This document shows, one piece after another, positions 1,023 through 63,498 of a stretch of DNA of 64,000 bases. Each line of letters begins with the position of its first letter. Position 1 is the first letter of the stretch. The stretch is from contig NC_133237.1 in the NCBI RefSeq assembly GCF_040436345.1, positions 24,371,749-24,435,748 of the forward strand. The letters run 5' to 3'. The DNA comes from Pagrus major. Its lineage: Eukaryota; Chordata; Actinopteri; Spariformes; Sparidae. The translations under genes and the position numbers were made by a program. The notes under the pieces were generated by a model. That model was given only the letters and a program-made list of their open reading frames with translations, made no database searches and was not told where the DNA came from.

Positions 1023-2937
1023 TCACTGACGCGGACCTGCAAAGAAGCGATTGATGAAGATCGAGTTAAAGTTGAGTCTGGCAGGAGGAGCCGTTCTGTC
1101 CTCCATGTGCTTTATCGCTACCTGGGCTGTTCCTCCTGCTGATCCACCTACAGCTCCGCCTATGATCCCATACAGAACCATCCCACCTGGACCCTCTATA
1201 GCCCCAAACAGCGCACCCACGACAGCTCCCACAACAAACCCCGTCCCCAGTCCTCTGGCCAGGGAAGTCCTGACCCATCCATTGTCCATCTCCGCCTTGG
1301 CTCTGATCTCTGCTCCGACGCTGGTGGTGTAGGCGTCCTGCTGCTGATACAACTCCTCCGCTATGTACTGCTTCTCCATCTCAGTCCAGGCCTTCTTTAT
1401 CTCTGCTGCCCTCTGCTTCCTCAGCCTCTTCTCCTCCTTCTTCACGCAGTCCTCGGCCTTCTGGAAAGTTCTGCTGGAGAAGAAGCCCCCTCCTAAGGAG
1501 GCTGTCATCCTCTCTATCTTCTGCAGCAGCTCTCGGTCCCGGCTGCGATCTCTCCAGTTCTTGCTGAAAACGTGAAAGCGCCCGCCGTACTTCTCGATCA
1601 GTTCTCTCAGGTGCCAGTCGGTCTTCTGCACCCTGTTTTCCAGCGTCGCTGCCTCCACGTTTCCTTCATAGGCCAGGAGGATGATGCAGTGCCTCAGACA
1701 GTGTCTTCCAAAGCGTTCCCTCATCAGTTTCGGGGCTCTCATTTCATTCGGGGAGATGGTCTCCATGTCGAAGGCAATAAGGAAGGCGTGGGGACCAGGA
1801 ATACATAAGCACTTCTGCCTCCTCAGCTCCATCTTCCTCTTGGGCCGAGAAATATCCTTGTCGTAGATGTTCGGGCCGTTGATCACAGCCACTCGTCTGC
1901 CAGCCAGCTCTCCGGTGTTCTTCCTGCTGTCAGAGATGCTGCTGATGTCTTTAGAGAACACCTCCCTCCCCAGTATGGCATTTGTTAGGAGGAACTGTGT
2001 AGGTCCATTGCTGCCGACCACCATGAGCCTTAATTCTGTGGGAGATCCTGTGAAACAAGGAGGTGCAGTTGAATTTGAGAAAGAAAGCAACACCATGTAA
2101 ATCTGAAGAGACAGAAGGAATTTTAATTGTGTTGAGAGGGCCGGTGTAAACCTTTGTTAATCAATTTAAACAGGACAATACAAGTAAACACTTAATCTGA
2201 TCCGTTCTCTCTGGTTGAAATAAATGTATTTTTTCTGCGCATGTTTGCCTCAGGTGGGAGTAACAGTAAGTCACGTGAACACGTTTGTGGAAGGGACAGA
2301 ACCCTTTGTGTTGATGCAGCATTGGTCGTCAGTTTTTACTCAAAATATCTATAAATATTTCAGATAATTTCTTTTTTTTCTGACAAAGCACTTTTTGTAT
2401 AAGAAAAAAGTTATTTGCTTTTATTTTAATTAGCACTTTCTCTTGTAGCTTTACCAAGACTACAAGCACAACAGCACTGTGACTTTGCTAAATGCTAATG
2501 TTTGCATGCTAATGTGCTCACAATGAAAATGATAACAGTCATAGTTTAGCATGCTAACCTTAAAAGCACACAACTCAAAGTTCAGCTGAGGCTGATGGGA
2601 CGGCCACTAGTTTTGCAGCTTTTTGATCATAAACCATAGTTTCTGACAAATGAACATTTTGGCGTCGGTGAGAAGTTCAGTGATGACTGAATAGATTATA
2701 TTACATGGACATTTTACTCAAAAACACAAATATTAAGATCATGATGGTGATAAAGAGAATTAACAAGGTCAGCAGGGTTAACAAATCAGTTATTATCTGT
2801 GACCCTGTGGTGGTGCACTGACAAAACAATTGATCCAGAGTAAAAGTACATTTAAAGCAGTTGTTTCTGTGTCATGTCTTTATATACTGTAGATACAGTG
2901 TGAAATCAGTGCTCTTACCTTTCTTCCTCTTCTCCAT
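1023..2937 (-). CDS. GIMAP/AIG1-family protein with degraded GTP-binding motifs
   Basis: Two coding exons are visible: 2919-2937 (ATG plus five codons, donor GTAAGAG) and 1023-2047 (acceptor after a pyrimidine tract ending CACAG). They join in phase to give 347 residues starting MEKRKKGSPTELRL. The ATG at 2096 is intronic. The fold signature is that of GIMAP (AIG1) GTPases, which act at intracellular membranes in lymphoid cells: 'LRLMVVG..G', 'NAILGREVFS', 'PGPHAFLIAFDM' and 'HVFSKN'. The P-loop is broken. Residues 18-25 read GSNGPTQF where the family has GxxGxGKS, so the catalytic Lys and Ser are Gln and Phe. The G3 box DTPG is replaced by NGPN. A charged coiled-coil-like stretch is followed by a glycine-zipper hydrophobic segment (about residues 272-312), a likely membrane anchor. 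Family assignment is firm; nucleotide binding is doubtful. Immune role is inferred from the family only. Confidence 0.82.
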
Positions 2938-13131: not shown

Positions 13132-14286
13132 TCATTGAATCTGACACCTCTCGGGTTTGTGTTGCTTGCTGGATCTCAGCACCAGCTGCAGGTCGCTGGT
13201 GAAGCTCGGCCGACGCGCCAGAGGGTCTGTGGCGGCGCAGGGCGCGCCGAGCCCCCGCGTCCGCCTCGCTCCCCTGCCCCGCTGGCCGATGCACATGGAC
13301 TGGTAGGTGAGGATGGAGACGAGCTGGTGCCGGGACGGGCTGGTCTCAACAGGCAGTCCCCCAAGAGTGGCGAGGGCCCTGAACGCAGCTTCCAGCCCGG
13401 TGCCGTCTTTGGCCGACGTTTCGAAGAAGGAGACGTCCTCACCGAGGCTCTCCGTCACCTCCGCGCGGCTCACGGCTCCCGGCGCCTCCAGGTCCGCTTT
13501 GTTCCCGCAGATCACAGCCGGTACTCTCGCGGGATGTTTCAATTTGAGTAGCTGTGCTTTGGCAGCTTTGATCTCGTTGAGCAGCGCGCAGACTTCATCG
13601 AAAGAGTTTCTGTCATCCAGACTGAAGACGAGCAGGAAGGTGTCACCTGGAGGAAAGAAAACATGAACATTTAATATAAAAGTCGAGTTTAAAGACACAA
13701 ATCTCACAATCTAGAGATTATTATACACATTTATGTCCAGAATCGTACAGTTTGTCTCACCTGTCAGGATGGATAACCTCCGTTTCGCGGGGAAGTTCCT
13801 CTCACTCGCTGCGTCCAGCAGATCCACCTGATAAGCTTCTCGTCCGATGTGGAACAGCTTCCTGTGAAAGTCCTCAGCTGTGGGCTCGTAGTTCTCTTCA
13901 AATTCGTTCCCCAAGAACCTCCTCAGGATGTTGGTTTTACCCACTTTGGGAGCACCGAGCACAACCACTCTGTGACAGTTCTTGGGCTTGGCCAGTCCCA
14001 GCTCCAGCAGGTCCACGGACCGCTTCGGGAGCCGATCAGTCGACCGCTGCCTGTTCCCAGAACTCGAGGATCTACTCGCAGCCGCTCTCTTCTCGTGCTG
14101 CCTCCAGCTCTCCCTCACGGTCTTGATGATGCCCATGCCTGTCTTGGATATGCTTGAGACTTTGGGGTGCTGTGTGGCCGGAGAGCTCTGGAGAGCTGGG
14201 TGCGTAATGCGTGACTGCCCGGTGAGAGAGTTGAACATGTCCAGGATGCCATCAACGGGAAGGTAGAACTTCTCAGTTGTGTTCAT
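13132..14286 (-). CDS. RASD-family (Dexras1/Rhes-like) small GTPase with long N-terminus
   Basis: Two exons, 13761-14286 and 13132-13646, join in phase at ACA-G|GT to give 346 residues. The G domain follows RASD1/RASD2: 'KNCHRVVVLGAPKVGKT' (P-loop 111-118), 'EPTAEDFHRK' (switch I), 'RRLSILTGDTFLLVFSLD', NKAD (G4) and ETSAK (G5). The RASD cationic tail has 'ARRPSFTSDLQLV', and the CaaX box is CQIQ for prenylation. RASD proteins are membrane-bound, inducible Ras relatives that modulate G-protein and cAMP signalling. Two oddities: about 100 residues precede the G domain (about 30 in RASD1), and the G3 box DxxG reads DAAS (158-161), which predicts altered GTP hydrolysis. An internal start at Met51 is possible. 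The intron position after LTG supports the family. I cannot assign which RASD paralogue it is. Confidence 0.88.
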
Positions 14287-14382
14287 CTCCGTGTTCTGTC
14301 AGAGACACCGAGAGGCGATCAGAAATCTTACCGACCCAGCTGCTTCTCCATGTGTGCGCCGAACCAGAGCCGAGCGCGCTCT

Positions 14383-24967: not shown

Positions 24968-26250
24968 AATCAAAACACAATAATACAACAACCTTGAAAT
25001 ACAATAATACAACAAACCCGAAAAACAATAATACAACCCAAAATACAATAAAACAAAAACTCAAAACAAAATAAAACAAAAACTCAAAACACAATAATAC
25101 AACAAACTCAAAACACAATAATACAACAACCTTGAAATACAATAATACAACAAACCCGAAAAACAATAATACAACCCAAAACAAAATAAAACAAAAACTC
25201 AAAACAAAATAAAACAAAAACTCAAAACAAAATAAAACAAAAACTCAAAACAAAATAAAACAAAAACTCAAAACAAAATAAAACAAAAACCTTGAAAAAC
25301 AATAATACAACAAACCCGAAAAACAATAATACAACCCGAAAAACAATAACACAACCCGAAAAACAATAATACAACCCGAAAAACAATAATACAAAAACTC
25401 AAAACAAAATGAAACAAAAACTCAAAACAAAATGAAACAAAAACTCAAAACAAAATGAAACAAAAACTCAAAACAAAATGAAACAAAAACTCAAAACAAA
25501 ATGAAACAAAAACTCAAAACAAAATGAAACAAAAACTCAAAACAAAATGAAACAAAAACTCAAAACAAAATGAAACAAAAACTCAAAACACAATAATACA
25601 ACAAACTTGAAATACAATAATACAACAAACTTGAAATACAATAATACAACAAACTTGAAATACAATAATACAACAAACTTGAAATACAATAATACAACAA
25701 ACCTGAAATACAATAATACAACAAACTCGAAATACAATAATACAAAAAACCCAAAAAACCTCAAAACACAATAATACAACAAACTTGAAATACAATGATA
25801 CAACAAACCTGAAATACAATCATACAACCCGAAATACAATAATGCAACAAACTCGAAATACAATAATGCAACAAACTCGAAATACAATAATGCAACAAAC
25901 TCGAAATACAATAATGCAACAAACTCGAAATACAATAATGCAACAAACTCGAAATACAATAATGCAACAAACCCGAAATACAATAATATAACAAACTCGA
26001 AATACAATAATACAACAAACCCGAAATGCAATAATACAACAAACTCAAAACACAATAAAACAACAAACTCAAAACAAAATAAAACCAAAACAAACTCAAA
26101 ACACAATAATGCAACAAACGAGAAATCCAATAACGCAACAAATCCAAAATACAATAATGCAACAAACTAGAAATCCAATAACGCAACAAATCCAAAATAC
26201 AATAATGCAACAAACTAGATATCCAATAACGCAACAAACCCAAAATACAA
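24968..26250. repeat. Minisatellite array A (22-24 bp units, almost no G)
   Basis: Sub-blocks include 'aaaactcaaaacaaaatgaa' units of 22 bp (25388-25580), 'caataatacaacaaacttga' units of 24 bp (25590-25740) and 'caataatgcaacaaactcga' units of 24 bp (25838-25990). The plus strand is A/C-rich. Minus-strand ORFs up to 205 codons arise because the units lack stops in that direction; they are not genes. Confidence 0.95.
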
Positions 26251-27838
26251 TACCGCAAGAAGTCCAATCATACAATAGATCCCGTATCCAATTATGCAAT
26301 AGATCCCGTATCCAATTATGCAATAGATCCCGTATCCAATTATGCAATAGATCCCGTATCCAATTATGCAATAGATCCCATATCCAATTATGCAATAGAG
26401 CCCATATCCAATTATGCAATAGATTCCAAGTCCCAATAGATCCCATATCCAATTATGCAATGGATTCCAAGTCCCAATAGATCCCATATCCAATTATGCA
26501 ACGGATCCCTAGTCCCAATAGCTCCCATATCCAATTATGCAATGGATCCCGAGTCCCAATAGCTCCCATATCCAATTATGCAATGGATCCCGAGTACCAA
26601 TAGCTCCCATATCCAATTATGCAATGGATCCCGAGTCCCAATAGCTCGCATATCCAATTATGCAATGGATCCCTAGTCCCAATAGCTCGCATATCCAATT
26701 ATGCAATGGATCCCGAGTCCCAATAGCTCCCATATCCAATTATGCAATGGATCCCGAGTCCCAATAGCTCCCATATCCAATTATGCAATGGATCCCGAGT
26801 CCCAATAGCTCCCATTTCCAATTATGCAATGGATCCCGAGTCCCAATAGCTCCCATATCCAATTATGCAATGGATCCCGAGTCCCAATAGCTCGCATATC
26901 CAATTATGCAATGGATCCCGAGTCCCAATAGCTCGCATATCCAATTATGCAATGGATCCCTAGTCCCAATAGCTCGCATATCCAATTATGCAATGGATCC
27001 CGAGTCCCAATAGCTCGCATATCCAATTATGCAATGGATCCCGAGTCCCAATAGCTCGCATATCCAATTATGCAATGGATCCCGAGTCCCAATAGCTCCC
27101 ATATCCAATTATGCAATGGATCCCGAGTCCCAATAGCTCGCATATCCAATTATGCAATAGATCCCGAGTCCCAATAGCTCGCATATCCAATTATGCAATG
27201 GATCCCTAGTCCCAATAGCTCGCATATCCAATTATGCAATGGATCCCGAGTCCCAATAGCTCCCATATCCAATTATGCAATGGATCCCGAGTCCCAATAG
27301 CTCCCATATCCAATTATGCAATGGATCCCGAGTCCCAATAGCTCCCATTTCCAATTATGCAATGGATCCCGAGTCCCAATAGCTCGCATATCCAATTATG
27401 CAATGGATCCCGAGTCCCAATAGCTCGCATATCCAATTATGCAATGGATCCCGAGTCCCAATAGCTCGCATATCCAATTATGCAATGGATCCCTAGTCCC
27501 AATAGCTCGCATATCCAATTATGCAATGGATCCCTAGTCCCAATAGCTCGCATATCCAATTATGCAATGGATCCCGAGTCCCAATAGCTCGCATATCCAA
27601 TTATGCAATGGATCCCGAGTCCCAATAGCTCGCATATCCAATTATGCAATGGATCCCGAGTCCCAATAGCTCCCATATCCAATTATGCAATGGATCCCGA
27701 GTCCCAATAGCTCGCATATCCAATTATGCAATAGATCCCGAGTCCCAATAGCTCCCATATCCAATTATGCAGTCGATACCATATCCAATCATACTATATA
27801 TCCCAAGTCCCAATAGATCCCATATCCAATCATACAGT
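26251..27838. repeat. Minisatellite array B (24-bp then 41-bp units)
   Basis: 26270-26420 repeats a 24-bp unit (CCAATTATGCAATAGATCCC + GTAT). 26430-27770 repeats a 41-bp unit that keeps CCAATTATGCAATGGATCCC and adds GAGTCCCAATAGCTC plus GCATAT. Copies differ mainly at GAG/TAG and CGC/CCC positions. About 33 copies of the long unit are seen. Confidence 0.95.
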
Positions 27839-29156
27839 AGATCTACTGTATGGAATCCAACAAATCCAATACTTAATGGAATCCAAACAAATCCAATACG
27901 TAATGGAATCCAAGATGTAATGAAATCCAATACTTACTGAAATCCAAACAAATCCAATACTTACTGAAATCCAGACAAATCCAATACTTACTGAAATCCA
28001 GACAAATCCAATACTTACTGAAATCCAATCAAATCCAATACTTAATGGAATCCAAACAAATCCAATACTTAATGGAATCCATACAAATCCAATACTTAAT
28101 GGAAATCTAGACAAATCCAATACTTAATGGAATCCAAACAAATCCAATACTTAATGGAATCCAAACAAATCCAATACTTAATGGAATCCAAACAAATCCA
28201 ATACTTAATGGAATCCAAACAAATCCAATACTTAATGGAATCCAATACTTAATGGAATCCAAACAAAGCCAATACTTAATGGAATCCAAACAAATCCAAT
28301 ACTTAATGGAATCCAAACAAATCCAATACTTAATGGAATCCAATCAAATCCAATACTTAATGGAATCCAATCAAATCCAATACTTAATGGAATCCAAACA
28401 AATCCAATACTTAATGGAATCCAATCAAATCCAATACTTAATGGAATCCAATCAAATCCAATACTTAATGGAATCCAATCAAATCCAATACTTAATGGAA
28501 TCCAAACAAATCCAATACTTAATGGAATCCAATCAAATCCAATACTTAATGGAATCCAATCAAATCCAATACTTAATGGAATCCAAACAAATCCAATACT
28601 TAATGGAATCCAATCAAATCCAATACTTAATGGAATCCAAACAAATCCAATACTTAATGAAACCCAAACAAATCCAATACTTAAAGAAATCCAAACAAGT
28701 CCAATACTTAGTTGGAATCCAAACAAATCCAATACTTGATGAAATCCAAACAAATCCAATACTTAAAGGAATCCAAACAAATCCAATACTTAAAGGAAAT
28801 CCAATCAAATCCAATACTTAATGGAATCAAACAAATCCAATACTTAATGGAATCAAACAAATCCAATACTTAAAGGAAATCCAATCAAATCCAATACTTA
28901 ATGGAATCAAACAAATCCAATACTTAATGGAATCAAACAAATCCAATACTTAATGGAATCAAACAAGTCCAATACTTAAAGAAACCCAAACAAGTCCAAT
29001 ACTTAAAGAAACCCAAACAAGTCCAATACTTAAAGAAACCCAAACAAGTCCAATACTTAAAGAAACCCAAACAAGTCCAATACTTAAAGAAACCCAAACA
29101 AGTCCAATACTTAAAGAAACCCAAACAAGTCCAATACTTAAAGGAATCCAATCAAA
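27839..29156. repeat. Minisatellite array C (27-bp units)
   Basis: Unit AATCCAATACTTAATGGAAT + CCAAACA, with a terminal sub-block (28965-29130) of AGTCCAATACTTAAAGAAAC + CCAAACA. The period is a multiple of three, so repeat-encoded ORFs run long (189 codons plus, 175 codons minus). This is a repeat effect. Confidence 0.95.
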
Positions 29157-30075
29157 TAGGCGGAACAAATCAGGAGGCAGGACTGAACGGGGCGGCTAGG
29201 CGGAACAAATCAGGAGACAGGACGGAACGGGACGGCTAGGCGTGGGACCGGGCGGCAAGACGGAACACCTCGGGAGGCGAGGCGGGACGGGGCGGCAAGG
29301 CGGAACACCTCGGGAGGCGTGGCGGGACGGGGCGGCAAGGCGGAACACCTCGGGAGGCGAGGCGGGACGGGGCTGCAAGGCGGAACACCTCGGGAGGCGA
29401 GGCGGGACGGGGCGGCAAAGCGGGACACCTCGGGAGGCGAGGCGGGACGGGGCGGCAAAGCGGGACACCTCGGGAGGCGGGACGGGACAGGAAGGCAGAG
29501 CATCTCGGGAGGCGAGGCGGAACGGGGCGACAAGGTGGAACACCTGGGGAGGCAGTGCGGCAAAGCAGAACCCCTTGGGAGGCGGGGCGGCAAGGCGGAA
29601 CACCTCGGGAGGCGAGGCGGAACGGCAAGGCGGAACGGCAAGGCGGAACACCTCGGGAGGCGAGACGGGGCGGGGCGGCAAGGCGGAACACCTCGGGAGG
29701 CGAGACGGGGCGGGGCGGCAAGGCGGAACACCTCGGGAGGCGAGGCGGAACGGCAAGGCGGAACACCTCGGGAGGCGAGACGGGGCGGGGCCGCAAGGCG
29801 GAACACCTCGGGAGGCGGGGCGGGGCCGCAAGGCGGAACACCTCGGGAGGCGAGGCGGGACGGGGCGGCAAGGCGGAACACCTCGGTAGGCGAGGCGGGG
29901 CGGGACGGCAAGGCGGAACACCTCGGGAGGCGAGGCGGGACGGGGCGGCAAGGCGGAACACCTCGGTAGGCGAGGCGGGGCGGGACGGAAAGGCGGAACA
30001 CCTCGGGAGGCGAGGCGGGACGGGGCGGCAAGGCGGAACACCTCGGTAGGCGAGACGGGGCGGGACGCCAAGGGG
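29157..30075. repeat. Minisatellite array D (40-bp, G-rich units)
   Basis: Unit GGCGGAACACCTCGGGAGGC + GAGGCGGGACGGGGCGGCAA, about 23 copies, with the first two copies (29158-29237) more AT-rich ('aacaaatcaggag'). Both strands are open in several frames (up to 304 codons), since 40 bp steps through all three frames without a stop. The G-rich plus strand is G-quadruplex-prone. Confidence 0.95.
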
Positions 30076-30090
30076 CGGGAGATAATTTAT

Positions 30091-30175
30091 TACAGATTAC
30101 ATGCAGTTTCCTCTGGAGCCACAAAAGACTTTAAACTACTTTTTTCACACATGCAGTCAGACTCCACCCTTCATT
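30091..30175. repeat. Dispersed fish repeat (family R4), copy 1
   Basis: 'cagattacatgcagtttcct', 'ctggagccacaaaa' and 'cacatgcagt' recur at 56333-56410, placing the right edge of the minisatellite chain in or beside a dispersed element. Confidence 0.7.
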
Positions 30176-37800: not shown

Positions 37801-37939
37801 CAGGAACAAACTTGTGGACGTCACTGAAGTTGCCAGCTGAACTGACCTCTAACCATCCACCTTGCCTGAGGCGACGCAGTGGGCTGGCCCGCTGTTAGAC
37901 TTTAGCCTTTTTCGCCACCTGTGAAACACAACTGCCATC

Positions 37940-40900
37940 ATGCAGACGTCATCGCTCCGCCGGCAGATGAAAAACATGGTCAACAACTACACAGAGGCCG
38001 AGATCAAGGTCCGAGAGGCCACCTCCAACGACCCCTGGGGTCCTCCCAGCTCGCTCATGTCAGAAATCGCAGACCTGACCTTCAACGTGGTGGCCTTCAC
38101 CGAGGTCATGGGGATGATCTGGAAGCGGCTCAACGACCACGGTAAAAACTGGCGACATGTTTATAAAGCTCTGACCCTGATGGACTACCTGATCAAAACG
38201 GGCTCTGAGCGCGTGGCCCAGGAGTGCCGGGAGAACATTTACAGCGTCCAGACACTGAGAGACTTCCAGTACATAGACCGAGACGGGCGCGACCAGGGCG
38301 TGAACGTCCGGGAGAAGGCCAAGCACCTGGTGGCTCTGCTGAGGGACGAGGAGAAGCTGAAGAAGGAGAGGAGCCAGGCTCTGAAGACCAAGACGCGCAT
38401 GGCGGGGGTCACCAGCGGCTTAGGCTCTGGATCCATACCTCCTCCATACCCGGGTCGTCGCAGCAGCCAGCCCAGCCGAGGCAATGTAGATGAGTACGGT
38501 GTCTGCAGAGGCTCACCATCCTCCCATTACTGTGAGTAGCAAGTCCCTCAGAGTACACAATGTAACTAAATACATTTACTCAAGAACAACGTAAGTACAA
38601 TTTTGAGGTTTTACTTGACACTTCCACTCTACTGCATTTTGGAGACAAATATTTCAGTTTTTGACCGATACATTTATGTGACGAGTGCGGTGCATCACTA
38701 CTTTCCGAGCCAGACCACAACAACTAATGTGAGAGGCATCCTGGAGCAGCTGACCGTAAACATTCTAGCCCTTGATGCTAATGTCAGCCAGCATGCTACT
38801 GTTGACAGAAACTTAATATCTTACCACCAGTTCCTGCCGAAGAAAAGAAAACCTGTGTTGACTTCATCTCCCCACTCATCGAGACTCGTTTAACCTTCTG
38901 AAACCTTCCTTCCTAAAGTGGTTGCACCACACTAATCGCCATTTTGTCTTCTAGCCCTTGAGGCTAATGTTAGCTAGCATACAACTGTTGACATAAGCTT
39001 AAAGTCACCTCCACTTCTCGCTGAAGAGTAGAAAACCTGTGTTGACCGCGTCTCTTCACTCATCCAGACTGTTTCAACAGGCGAATCTCTTAATTTTGTT
39101 TACGTCTCCGTCCCCATGAGAATGCGTCATGTGTCTAAATTGCATCAAATTCAACACTGCACTTCCTCTGGTCCTCAGCAACAAACCTGCCAAGTGTGAA
39201 GTAGATCAGATAAACAGTTCTGCAGACAGAGATTCTTGCTTTATAGTTAGATTGATAAATTCAATTTTATCTGCAATTGGATAAAAAAAAAAACAGAGTG
39301 ATATCTCAACATGATAGTCTCTAAGTATGACTTCTGGGTACTTTTTACAACAATGCTCACCTGAATGACACCTGAATATTTTACTTGCCGTGTGACATGT
39401 CATCTGTCAGGAATGTACACCCGACAGGTCACGAGGTCACTTTGTCATGAGTTCAATTGAGATGTGATCTTTAAGTAACAGAATAACCACATTCCTTAAC
39501 TTGTCAGTTTATCAATCAACCTCAGATTTTCCATTTGATGACAGAAAAGAGAAAAAGAGGCTGTCCGTTAAATATCTCTACACTCCGCTCAAGCTTTTGA
39601 GACATCAGTCACTTCTTATCTGTGATTTATCATTGAAGCTGAAGCTATTTTAACACCAAAAGCACATTCCAACATTTAAAAACCCTTGTAAGAATCAATA
39701 AATCGCTCGGGTCTTTTTGGTCCTCTGGTGTTTCAGTAGAAAGTGTTTCAGTTTTGCTCTCCGCTGACGGTCGGACATCTGCATTCCTTTCATTCTGCTG
39801 TTGACAGTCACGTCAGCTAAACTGGATTTACAAAAGAGAGGAGGCCCTGTTTGCGCTTGTCTCAATCTAACGTGAAACCACAGCTGGTTGCCATGTTTAC
39901 TTGTGGTGGTACGATGTGTTACGCTCCCGCAGAGATGTTGGTTTGGTGGCCAGATGATATAATACCCCAGTGATCCCTCTGTGAGTGTGGAGGGGTTAGG
40001 AACTGTGATGTCAGCTCAAAGCATCAAGTAGATGTATGTGGTGCAACTACAGCTGCTGTGTACCATATACTTTGGTATTCATGTGGTCCGTGTGGTGTTT
40101 ATTTAAAGGTATTAGTCAGTAGCAGCGCTGTGGCTTCTTTAAGGCTCCAGCCACTCTGCTATACTTTGATGTCTGAGGTCTGTTTATCATGGCGTTAACA
40201 GAGACAAGCCCTCAGGTGGTATCTGACTGTTTTACGACCACTCCGTCCACAAAAGGCCGTTTTTCTCAAATAAATTTTCCACTTGATTCTCTTCCCTTGC
40301 ATACTTCTCTGGGCCGGAGCGTGTGCCAGTGGAAACGTGGCAGAAAGAGATGCTACAATGGGAGCATGGTTTGTAATACGCAGGCAAGAGATATACATCC
40401 GATAACACCGCAGATTATTAAAGTTTAAAGCTGCTGCCCGAGGCGCTGATGCTGGATAACAATTTCACACTCTGAATATCAGCAAATAATTAAAATCACT
40501 TGGTGGTTATCGAGAAAACCCTAGATGACAAAAGAGGTGTGCTGCAGCTTTAAAATACTTGAAATATGTGTGTAACTGCAGTAATTGCATTTGTTTTTGC
40601 AACACTGCACAACAGCAGACTGTCTCCGTCTGCCCAGGGTGGTTTTTAAAGTCCCCCTCCAGTCAAAAATGTGTTTTGTTTTTGTTCCTACAAAGCAGAG
40701 TCCAACACTAGTTTGGAAGACAAGTCCTAGTCCAATATTCAACTTACACAAGTATGATGTGGACACTTGATGCCTAACCCTAACCCTCCATACAGCTTGT
40801 CCGGCGTAATCTAAGTCTTTCGAAAACCCCTGAGATCCCAAATTAATTTGAAAAGACGTTATTTAACCAACTTTTTAAGCAGAATCCTTACTGTAGCTGT

Positions 40901-48193: not shown

Positions 48194-49878
48194 TCACTTG
48201 ACTGTGATGGACTCCAGCCAGCTCAGCACCTCCTGAAGTCCCTCTCCAGAGTGGGCGCTGAGTTCCAGTGTTGTGATTGGCTGAGTGGCAGATGCAATGA
48301 TGTCATCCATTCTGAACAGCGACTTTATCTCTATAAGACTCATAGTGCAAGGCATGTCCCTGGAGAAGGGCGACAAGAAAAGCTAAAATTAGAAAATGCA
48401 CGATGACGTGAATACATTTTGTGTTCAACCTGCTGATACCGACTCATGAAGGGTTTAATATGCATGTTAAAGAGTGTCACCTCTTGTTGAAGAGAATAAG
48501 CACGGAGACGCTGTGCAGAGGCTCAGCAGAGAGTACTGACAGCAGCTGGATACAGGAGGAGGACACCTGAGCAATGTTGGCTGAGTCCACCATAAACTGT
48601 GAAACAACACACAGAAAGAAACATTCAGTCAAATAATTTCAATTTATTTATCTCAGTCAAATGTTAAATACGTGCTGTATGCACACAAAGAACATACAAT
48701 GACAGAAGAGCAGTCTTTGAAGTATTTCGGCCATATAGGGCCCATGCAGCCTCCCAGCTCTCTTAATGTCAACTTCTTCCTCCTCTTCAACGTCAGGTCT
48801 GTCAGGTTGGTTCCTACCTGTTGAGGTTTAAGGAGATCAGAGGCATTACATAGATTACACTTCTGTCTCAGCAGAAATGAGTCTGCAAACTTATCACAAC
48901 CACCTTTCAAGATTACTCACTGTAGGAAGAGTAGAAGGAGGTGGCCCCAGTTCACCTGACCCGTGCAAATTGAGCTGTAAATGAAATCTGTTAAAGGAAA
49001 TATCCACAGGAACCAGTGCTGTAGCATTTATCAGTTTCAAAGGCAAAATGTGAGTTTCAAGACACACATTTGATAAGATTTTGCCCCGGGAATCCCCATC
49101 TGGTAAGGTGTTTGCCCTTTAGATGTTTCATTACAGAAAGTGTATGCAACCCATGAACAAAATACTCACACATTCTGTTACTGAATGGAATTATTGTAAA
49201 GTTAACTAGTCCCCATTTTGTTGGGGACCCCGCCGGAGCCCTCTCTGGGACCCCTGAGGGTCCCCACTATGGTAACCACTGATTAAACTGTTGATACAGT
49301 GCCTGAAAAAAGTATGTCATTTAAAATTAATTTAAAACACAATGTGAAATAGCATTTTAGTTTATTTTATCTGACTAATTTTAAGCTTTGTACTCAAACT
49401 GCTGCAAAATTACGTGAACATATCGACCAATATCGGTGATGAAAGGCCATATGTAACACTAACTAAGCTAGTATGTAAGCAATATATATATCAGAGGTGT
49501 AAAGACTACTGGAATACCCTACCCAGGTAGAAGTAACTTTAACGTTACTGTTACTGCATTGTACTCAAATACTTGCGTAAAAATGACAGTAAAAAGTAGC
49601 TTACTCTCAATAAAAGTTACTTTTCGTCCCGTTAATTTTGATAATCAATACATTTTGCCATTTTGCCTAAGCTAACGGTTACTACCAGCTTAGTAGACGT
49701 TGTTGGGCTAAATTAGCCAGCTAGCTGTCAGTTTACAGCAGTGTAACGTTACTTTTTCTAGTTCTAGTTTAAATTATCCCGCTGCGCGTATAAAAAGGAT
49801 ATTTTGTAGACGTTTCAGCAGCAACGTTTTTCCGACGCCGGTCGCTCCAAGAAGCAAACAAACGTCATTGCTGCTCAT
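48194..49878 (-). CDS. arl16: ADP-ribosylation factor-like protein 16
   Basis: Five exons: 49803-49878, 48921-48976, 48698-48817, 48481-48596 and 48194-48359, joining in phase to 177 residues. The P-loop is GATGVGKT (11-18). The ARL16 signatures follow: 'PPPSTLPTVGTNLTDL', then 'LRELGGCMGPIW', where the usual WDxGGQ switch II is RELGG as in human ARL16. G4 is FNKRD, and the C-terminus ends '...EGLQEVLSWLES'. ARL16 is an atypical ARF-family GTPase linked to antiviral RIG-I regulation and to traffic of ciliary cargo. It is shorter than human at the N-terminus because translation starts at the ATG nearest the P-loop. Intron 1 has no usable GT donor before an in-frame stop. Frame is restored only with an AT-AC intron (separate entry). 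The gene is head-to-head with fn3krp. Confidence 0.92.
48977..49802 (-). other. U12-type AT-AC intron of arl16
   Basis: On the minus strand exon 1 ends CTACAAA and the intron begins ATATCCTTTTT, the U12 AT-AC donor consensus. It ends TTTCCTTTAACAGATTTCAT + TTAC, with a U12-like branch site followed about 14 nt later by AC. Splicing there gives CAA-AAG-CTC in frame. The more 3' CAG acceptor would need a phase-0 GT donor, which is absent. A fragment of the 'agtaacttt' fish repeat (49495-49640) and a GGGGACCC/GGGTCCCC hairpin (49223-49270) lie inside. Confidence 0.8.
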
Positions 49879-50233
49879 TTCGGGTTTGCAGCAGCAGCAG
49901 CAGCATAGCGACGCCAGTCGTAGCATGTAAGCTAGCTAAAGTGGAGTCACTTGGCACCATGGTGACGCTCACGTGACTGCGTTCCATCGCTGTGATAGGA
50001 CGAAGTAGACATCAATCATTTGAGTCTCGTTTCTGATTGGTTGCCACTCCTCTCGGATGCATATACCGGAAGAAAACAAGCTCGCCATCCCCCGAGCGAG
50101 AGTCCTCATTGGTTCACACCACGGAAACGGCCAGAAACGCCCCCCTGAAGCCCTGACACTGCAGTTGCATTGACTGCGTTGTTGTTATTATCGTCCATGT
50201 AACTGTACCAGAACTAGTTTGTGCGATATAAAC
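49879..50233. promoter_or_regulatory. Bidirectional promoter between arl16 and fn3krp
   Basis: Only 355 bp separate the two divergent start codons. The segment has two ATTGG (inverted CCAAT) boxes near 50036 and 50108, an ETS-like ACCGGAAG near 50065, a CACGTGA E-box (49970-49976), and no TATA box near either start. Confidence 0.75.
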
Positions 50234-51793
50234 ATGGAAGCCAAGCTAAAGAAAGAGTTGGGGACAGCGATGCTGAAGCCAACTGGTCACTCGGGAGGTG
50301 GATGCATCAGCGAGGGACAAAGTTATGACACTGACAGTGGGAGAGTGTTTGTGAAGATAAACCACAAGAGCGAGGTATTTAATTATCATTATAGTGTATA
50401 TTATTGTATGCAAATATATTATATAAGAACACATATTGTTATGACGTGCTAATAGTAAAGGATTTGATCAAGCTGCTGCAGCCAAACAGCCACTGTGAAC
50501 TTTGTGCATGCAAACTAGTGTGGATCTGTGCTAAGTGCAAACTCAAATCCTTTGTTGTGTTGGCTTTATTCAGGCCAAATTGATGTTTGATGGGGAAATG
50601 GCCAGCCTGGAAGCCATTTTAAAGACAGAAACTGTGAAAGTCCCCAAACCTGTGAAGGTGATAGAGCTGGACAGAGGAGGATGTGTGTTTGTGATGGAGC
50701 ATCTGGACATGAGAGGTCTCAGCAAGTAAGAGCTGTCGTACAAGTTATCAGCATCAGTACCACTGTATGCAGGTTAGAGTAGAAGGCAGCAAAAACATAA
50801 TTGATTCTGTGTTTTTTAATGATTTTTCTAATGTTTAGGTACTCGAAGCACCTTGGAGAGCAGCTGGCAGATCTGCATCTGCACAACAAGAGACAAATGG
50901 AGAAATTGAATAAAGAGCAGCAGACAGTCGGTAATAACGAAACATCTTCCAATACTACACTGAATAGCAGTTACATCTCAAGTTAATTCCTGATTAGTTA
51001 AGATTTACTAACTTATTGGACTGAACACAGGAAAAGGAGCCGGGCAGTCTGAGGTGCCTGTTGTTGAAAAATTTGGCTTCAGTGTAACTACATGCTGTGG
51101 ATATCTACCACAGGTAAAAAGAAAAAAATAATCCATAAAATGTAGTACATTTGTAGCATGTGTCTTTGTGATGTTATAGTAATCCTGCGAGATATCACTG
51201 TTGTTCTCTTTTTCTTTATTTATCTTCTCAGGAGAACGAGTGGCGGGATGACTGGGTGGCATTTTACTCCCAGCAGAGGCTGCAGCACCAGCTCAACATG
51301 GTGGAGAAATCTCACGGAGACAGGGAGGCCAGAGAGCTGTGGGCCAAGCTACAGGTGCACCCTCCCTTCATCCCCATCAGAAACAAAGCGTGACAGATCT
51401 GTATGATTTGTCTAAAAAATCTGGCTGTGCAACTTTTGTGTCTGTCATTCACAGCTCAAGATCCCTCAGTTTTTCACAGATGTGGAGGTCGTCCCCGCTC
51501 TCCTCCATGGAGACTTATGGGGAGGAAACGTAGCAGAGTGTGCAGAAGGCCCAGTCATCTTTGACCCAGCCTCCTTCTATGGCCATTCAGAGTTCGAGCT
51601 GGGTATTGCGGGGATGTTCGGTGGCTTCAGCAGCTCTTTTTACTCCGCCTACCATGAAAAGATTCCTAAAGCGCCAGGCTTCGCAAAGAGAAACCAGCTC
51701 TACCAACTTTTTCACTATCTGAATCACTGGAACCACTTTGGTGGCGGCTACAGAGGCTCTTCAATAAGGATCATGAAGGACCTGCTGAAATAA
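50234..51793 (+). CDS. fn3krp: Fructosamine-3-kinase-related protein (ketosamine-3-kinase)
   Basis: Six exons, 50234-50374, 50574-50725, 50839-50930, 51031-51113, 51232-51354 and 51455-51793, join in phase to 309 residues, the length I recall for the human protein. The enzyme phosphorylates ribulosamines and psicosamines on glycated proteins so that the sugar falls off (protein deglycation, cytosol). Visible motifs are the P-loop GHSGGGCIS with Cys24 (the redox-switch cysteine of the family), Lys41 in VFVKIN for ATP, 'VMEHLDM' (hinge), the catalytic HGDLWGGN and the metal-binding [11 protein letters not shown]. '[20 protein letters not shown]' and the C-terminal '[14 protein letters not shown]' agree with FN3KRP rather than FN3K. 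No second tandem copy is seen, in contrast to mammals, where FN3K lies beside FN3KRP. Confidence 0.96.

Positions 51794-53685: not shown

Positions 53686-63498
<9,813 letters not shown>

Follow-up and report, generated by a model that had tools for sequence, protein, structure and literature searches.

Nature of the gene and its exons

An arl16-like gene of Pagrus major raises the question of whether its first intron, which follows the exon encoding the P-loop, is an ordinary GT-AG intron or an AT-AC intron spliced by the minor spliceosome. Within the window (the whole 64,000-nucleotide stretch of DNA analyzed), the gene comprises five coding exons on the minus strand (49878-48194; 76, 56, 120, 116, and 166 nt), which on joining give one open frame encoding a complete 177-aa Arf-family protein and a stop codon. 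The exons, and the predicted elements of intron 1, are as follows:

49803-49878, minus strand: coding exon 1, 76 nt; P-loop GATGVGKT, ends CAA-A in phase 1 (Arf-family match of the spliced protein)
48977-49802, minus strand: intron 1, 826 nt, AT...AC, phase 1, predicted U12-type (donor, branch site, and frame)
49794-49802, minus strand: predicted U12 A-type 5' splice site ATATCCTTT (9/9 consensus match)
48990-49000, minus strand: predicted branch-point element TTTCCTTTAAC, with its branch A (48991) 14 nt from the intron end
48977-48978, minus strand: terminal AC, predicted 3' splice site (letters and frame)
48921-48976, minus strand: exon 2, 56 nt; starts AG-CTC, followed by a U2-type donor, gtgagt
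48698-48817, minus strand: exon 3, 120 nt (spliced frame)
48481-48596, minus strand: exon 4, 116 nt (spliced frame)
48194-48359, minus strand: exon 5 with stop codon, 166 nt (spliced frame)

The spliced protein contains an Arf GTPase domain (Pfam PF00025, E 3.7e-24, residues 7-172), carries the P-loop GATGVGKT in its translation, and matches ARL1 and ARF1 chains in the PDB. Its assignment to ARL16 is based on the residues RELGGCMGPIW, which we take to be those of the human protein, rather than on tree placement. A second basis for the name is the MCLLLG start, as read from a human primer (PMC13216214). An in-frame upstream ATG at 49926 (49878-49926, minus strand) would add MLRLASLCCCCCCKPE, that is, six cysteines from a TGC repeat; of the Arl13 and Arl16 sequences analyzed in PMC8358228, about half are predicted to have N-terminal S-palmitoylated cysteines.

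Donor, frame, and ends of intron 1

On the minus strand, ATATCCTTTTT begins at 49802 and adjoins the last base of exon 1, which bears out the earlier note in its placement of a U12 AT-AC donor directly after the last plausible exon-1 codon. Its first nine letters match at 9/9 positions the string that we take to be the U12 A-type donor consensus. At the other end, the intron closes with TTTCCTTTAACAGATTTCATTTAC at 48977, after which exon 2 opens with AG-CTC. The intron had been described as spanning 48976-49803; the sites are correct, and the bounds need adjustment to 48977-49802, both 48976 and 49803 being exon bases.

Splicing from AT to AC produces the junction CAA-A/AG-CTC and keeps the complete reading frame; if intron 1 is retained, a stop follows after 34 aa, just past the P-loop. 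The junction is located in a 9-residue insertion relative to ARL1, and thus Arf homology settles the frame downstream of the junction, not the junction residues. The claim that such splicing restores the "exact ARL16 frame" therefore holds for the frame, which is open across CAA-A/AG-CTC, and not for the residues. From these letters, it is highly probable that arl16 intron 1 is a U12-type AT-AC intron, with its site use and spliceosome class both predicted. This reading alone among those tested unites a strong donor, a U12-like branch distance, and an Arf-family frame.

Branch site and acceptor region

The 8-mer CCTTTAAC matches the branch consensus TCCTTRAC at 6/8 positions, and the surrounding element contains one extra T. 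The predicted branch A (48991) lies 14 nt from the terminal AC, in agreement with the distance of about 14 nt reported previously, and slightly beyond the optimum of 11-13 nt cited for branch-to-end distance (PMC3584512). U12-type AT-AC introns have no distinct polypyrimidine tract at the 3' splice site. By an approximate matrix, the acceptor scores are -1.8 for the AC end and -0.2 for the AG, vs. 1.3, 5.6, and 8.9 in introns 2-4; the stretch is still T-rich.

Alternative junctions

The enumeration of junctions covered donors at codon 16 or later and introns of at least 60 nt. In 39 donor/acceptor pairs (AT-AC 18, GC-AG 9, AT-AG 7, GT-AG 5), the frame that opens at the ATG (49878) stays open through exon 2; AT pairs were detailed only where the donor has at least 7 matches (8 of 25). 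The donor at 49802 has eight in-frame ends, for which the best branch 8-mers 6-25 nt away match at 4 to 6 of 8 positions. A 6/8 match occurs at two of these ends, AC 48977 (14-15 nt) and AG 48956 (22 nt), so that 48977 is the only one of the eight with a 6/8 branch 8-mer nearer than 22 nt.

The same U12-type donor could instead use the AG at 48976-48975, giving an AT-AG intron whose 3' end is an alternative or a noisy one. This AG is just two bases past the AC and would share its branch element with the AC, the distance then being 16 nt; however, phase-1 exon 1 then meets phase-0 exon 2, the frame shifts, and the product ends as MSSND...RLQTQFARVR. The AT-AG combination is, moreover, disfavored (PMC3584512). 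We rejected this end and consider it highly unlikely.

Ordinary U2-type splicing, in which a weak GT or GC donor in exon 1 is joined to an AG, has in-frame pairs available: 14 of the 39 are GT-AG or GC-AG, of which 12 keep the exon-2 peptide GELGPPP (donor scores -3.2 to -12.7) and two drop it. The earlier note denies exon 1 any in-phase GT donor ahead of a stop. This is too strong a statement, given that five GTs precede the stop, counting exon 1 together with its read-on (49863, 49859, 49836, 49825, and 49811; donor scores -0.4 to -4.3) and that 5/39 in-frame pairs are GT-AG. The best pairs are GT 49825 to AG 48988 and GC 49782 to AG 48975, but their donors score -3.2 and -3.7, respectively, vs. 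6.6, 3.0, and 6.1 for introns 2-4; all of these scores come from the same approximate splice-site matrices, which penalize GC donors by construction, so that the score of the GC site is understated. Furthermore, the GT 49825 pair loses LLLKRLQ after GKT, and the GC 49782 pair gains NILFIRA. Given the weak donors and the residues lost or added, we rejected the GT-AG and GC-AG options for intron 1 as extremely improbable. Equally improbable is a main first exon other than the P-loop stretch, for although the AG at 48975 could accept a phase-0 exon, it is the stretch GATGVGKTLLLKRLQ that completes the Arf domain.

Chance expectation and duplex energies

Shuffling the 91-nt exon-1/stop region by dinucleotides 20,000 times yields a perfect RTATCCTTT in 6 cases, making the 9-mer unlikely at this location; among 20,000 shuffles of the 61-nt region at the acceptor, 1,164 contain a branch site with AC. 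Across the window, RTATCCTTT is found twice vs. 1.21 times expected, and thus the 9-mer alone proves nothing; 8-mer matches with at most one mismatch number 83 vs. 98 expected. Composites of donor, branch site, and end (AC being demanded for A donors, AG for G donors) number 14 in the real window (nine from the donor at 49802 and five from 15923, plus strand), vs. an average of 5.34 and a maximum of 21 in 100 shuffled windows. Significance from motifs only was therefore rejected, since both the 9-mer and the composite of donor, branch, and AC are expected by chance in 64 kb. The weight of the case for a U12-type intron lies in position and frame; the motif alone is not enough.

Duplex energies, computed with snRNA pieces, are lower for the intron-1 donor than for that of intron 2 (U11, -6.7 vs. 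-3.1; U6atac, -7.1 vs. -2.3). For the branch element, a crude test with U12 letters gives -6.7, the consensus reaching -8.3 and a control taken from the end of intron 2 reaching -7.1. Because the control scores better, this test fails to single out the branch element, and the duplex energies were set aside as evidence.

Human ARL16 and minor introns in general

In the excerpts of PMC13216214, human ARL16 is handled as a minor-intron gene that shows intron retention in ZCRB1-heterozygous HEK293 cells, such that its splicing alters on partial loss of a minor-spliceosome protein. RT-PCR of the entire coding sequence served to check the retention events, and exon-skipping and mutually-exclusive-exon events are likewise given for ARL16 (PMC13216214). 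These excerpts treat ARL16 at the level of the gene, leaving the position, class, and terminal dinucleotides of the retained intron unstated. By domain and N-terminus, the human and fish genes are probably the same, and both are minor-intron genes, the fish intron being predicted. Intron 1 of fish arl16 most likely corresponds to the known minor intron of human ARL16. Among the matches listed, no second paper joins ARL16 with U12 and intron, and the main text of PMC9501576 has no word starting with "arl". A human ARL16 splicing variant at a predicted splice site (PMC9714508) and a change of ARL16 isoform upon SF3B4 knockdown (PMC12140307) have no bearing on intron class.

U12 A-type AT-AC introns commonly have the donor ATATCCTTT, a TCCTTAAC-like branch site near the end, an AC end, and phase 1; against this pattern, arl16 intron 1 differs by the extra T of its branch element and is otherwise in no way notable. 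Minor introns are biased against phase 0, and zebrafish conserves 91% of those of human (PMC10639083). A-type minor introns need CENATAC and are spliced with lower efficiency (PMC8280824). AT-AC introns had been called a very small class; the class is real, and its rarity was somewhat overdrawn, as they make up 24% of minor introns (PMC8280824), or about 26% of those in human (PMC10639083). Because the human gene is already known to have a minor intron, arl16 intron 1 can be viewed as an ordinary conserved feature: fish arl16 would be expected to have a conserved minor intron, which is not new in kind.

Proposed splicing and its consequences

From established pathway knowledge, U11 and then U6atac would read ATATCCTTT, U12 would pair with TTTCCTTTAAC with the branch A bulged, and the U11/U12/U4atac/U6atac minor spliceosome would join CAA-A to AG-CTC. 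Retention would truncate the product to 34 aa; production of functional arl16 mRNA should therefore require the minor spliceosome. We infer this dependence for the fish gene, and it fits the retention of human ARL16 in ZCRB1-heterozygous cells described in PMC13216214. It is very unlikely that the adjoining AC and AG ends form a switch, by which AC would yield the full GTPase and AG a truncated product, with the dose of arl16 following minor-spliceosome activity.

The locus adds a well-formed, predicted AT-AC intron to a gene for a cilium-associated GTPase, the human copy of which already has a link to minor-spliceosome loss. A gene caller restricted to GT-AG introns would probably miss the P-loop exon of arl16 or annotate it in distorted form.

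Other features in the window

A blastn search at E 1e-3 finds no relative of intron 1 elsewhere in the window, and Rfam returns nothing at gathering scores for the whole window. In viral contigs, 21 stretches fit a search pattern, none of which was confirmed as a relative. Within the intron, a G/C-rich stretch (49209-49274) has inverted-looking ends, GTCCCC...GGGGACCC; a 22-nt probe of this stretch finds no second copy in the window with up to three mismatches. Repetitive stretches at 25537-30130 contain long open frames on both strands.

Eight stretches were submitted to Pfam; three have no match and five do, namely a fructosamine kinase and the following:

37925-38539, plus strand: ENTH-domain coding stretch
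62251-63498, minus strand: zf-C2H2_7 coding stretch
13711-14298, minus strand: Ras-family coding stretch
1023-2156, minus strand: AIG1-family coding stretch

The fructosamine-kinase gene (50234-51793, plus strand; PF03881, E 4.6e-41 on the last exon scanned, with the start read by eye) has its start on the opposite strand, some 350 bases away from that of arl16. This head-to-head arrangement suggests a promoter region common to the two genes.
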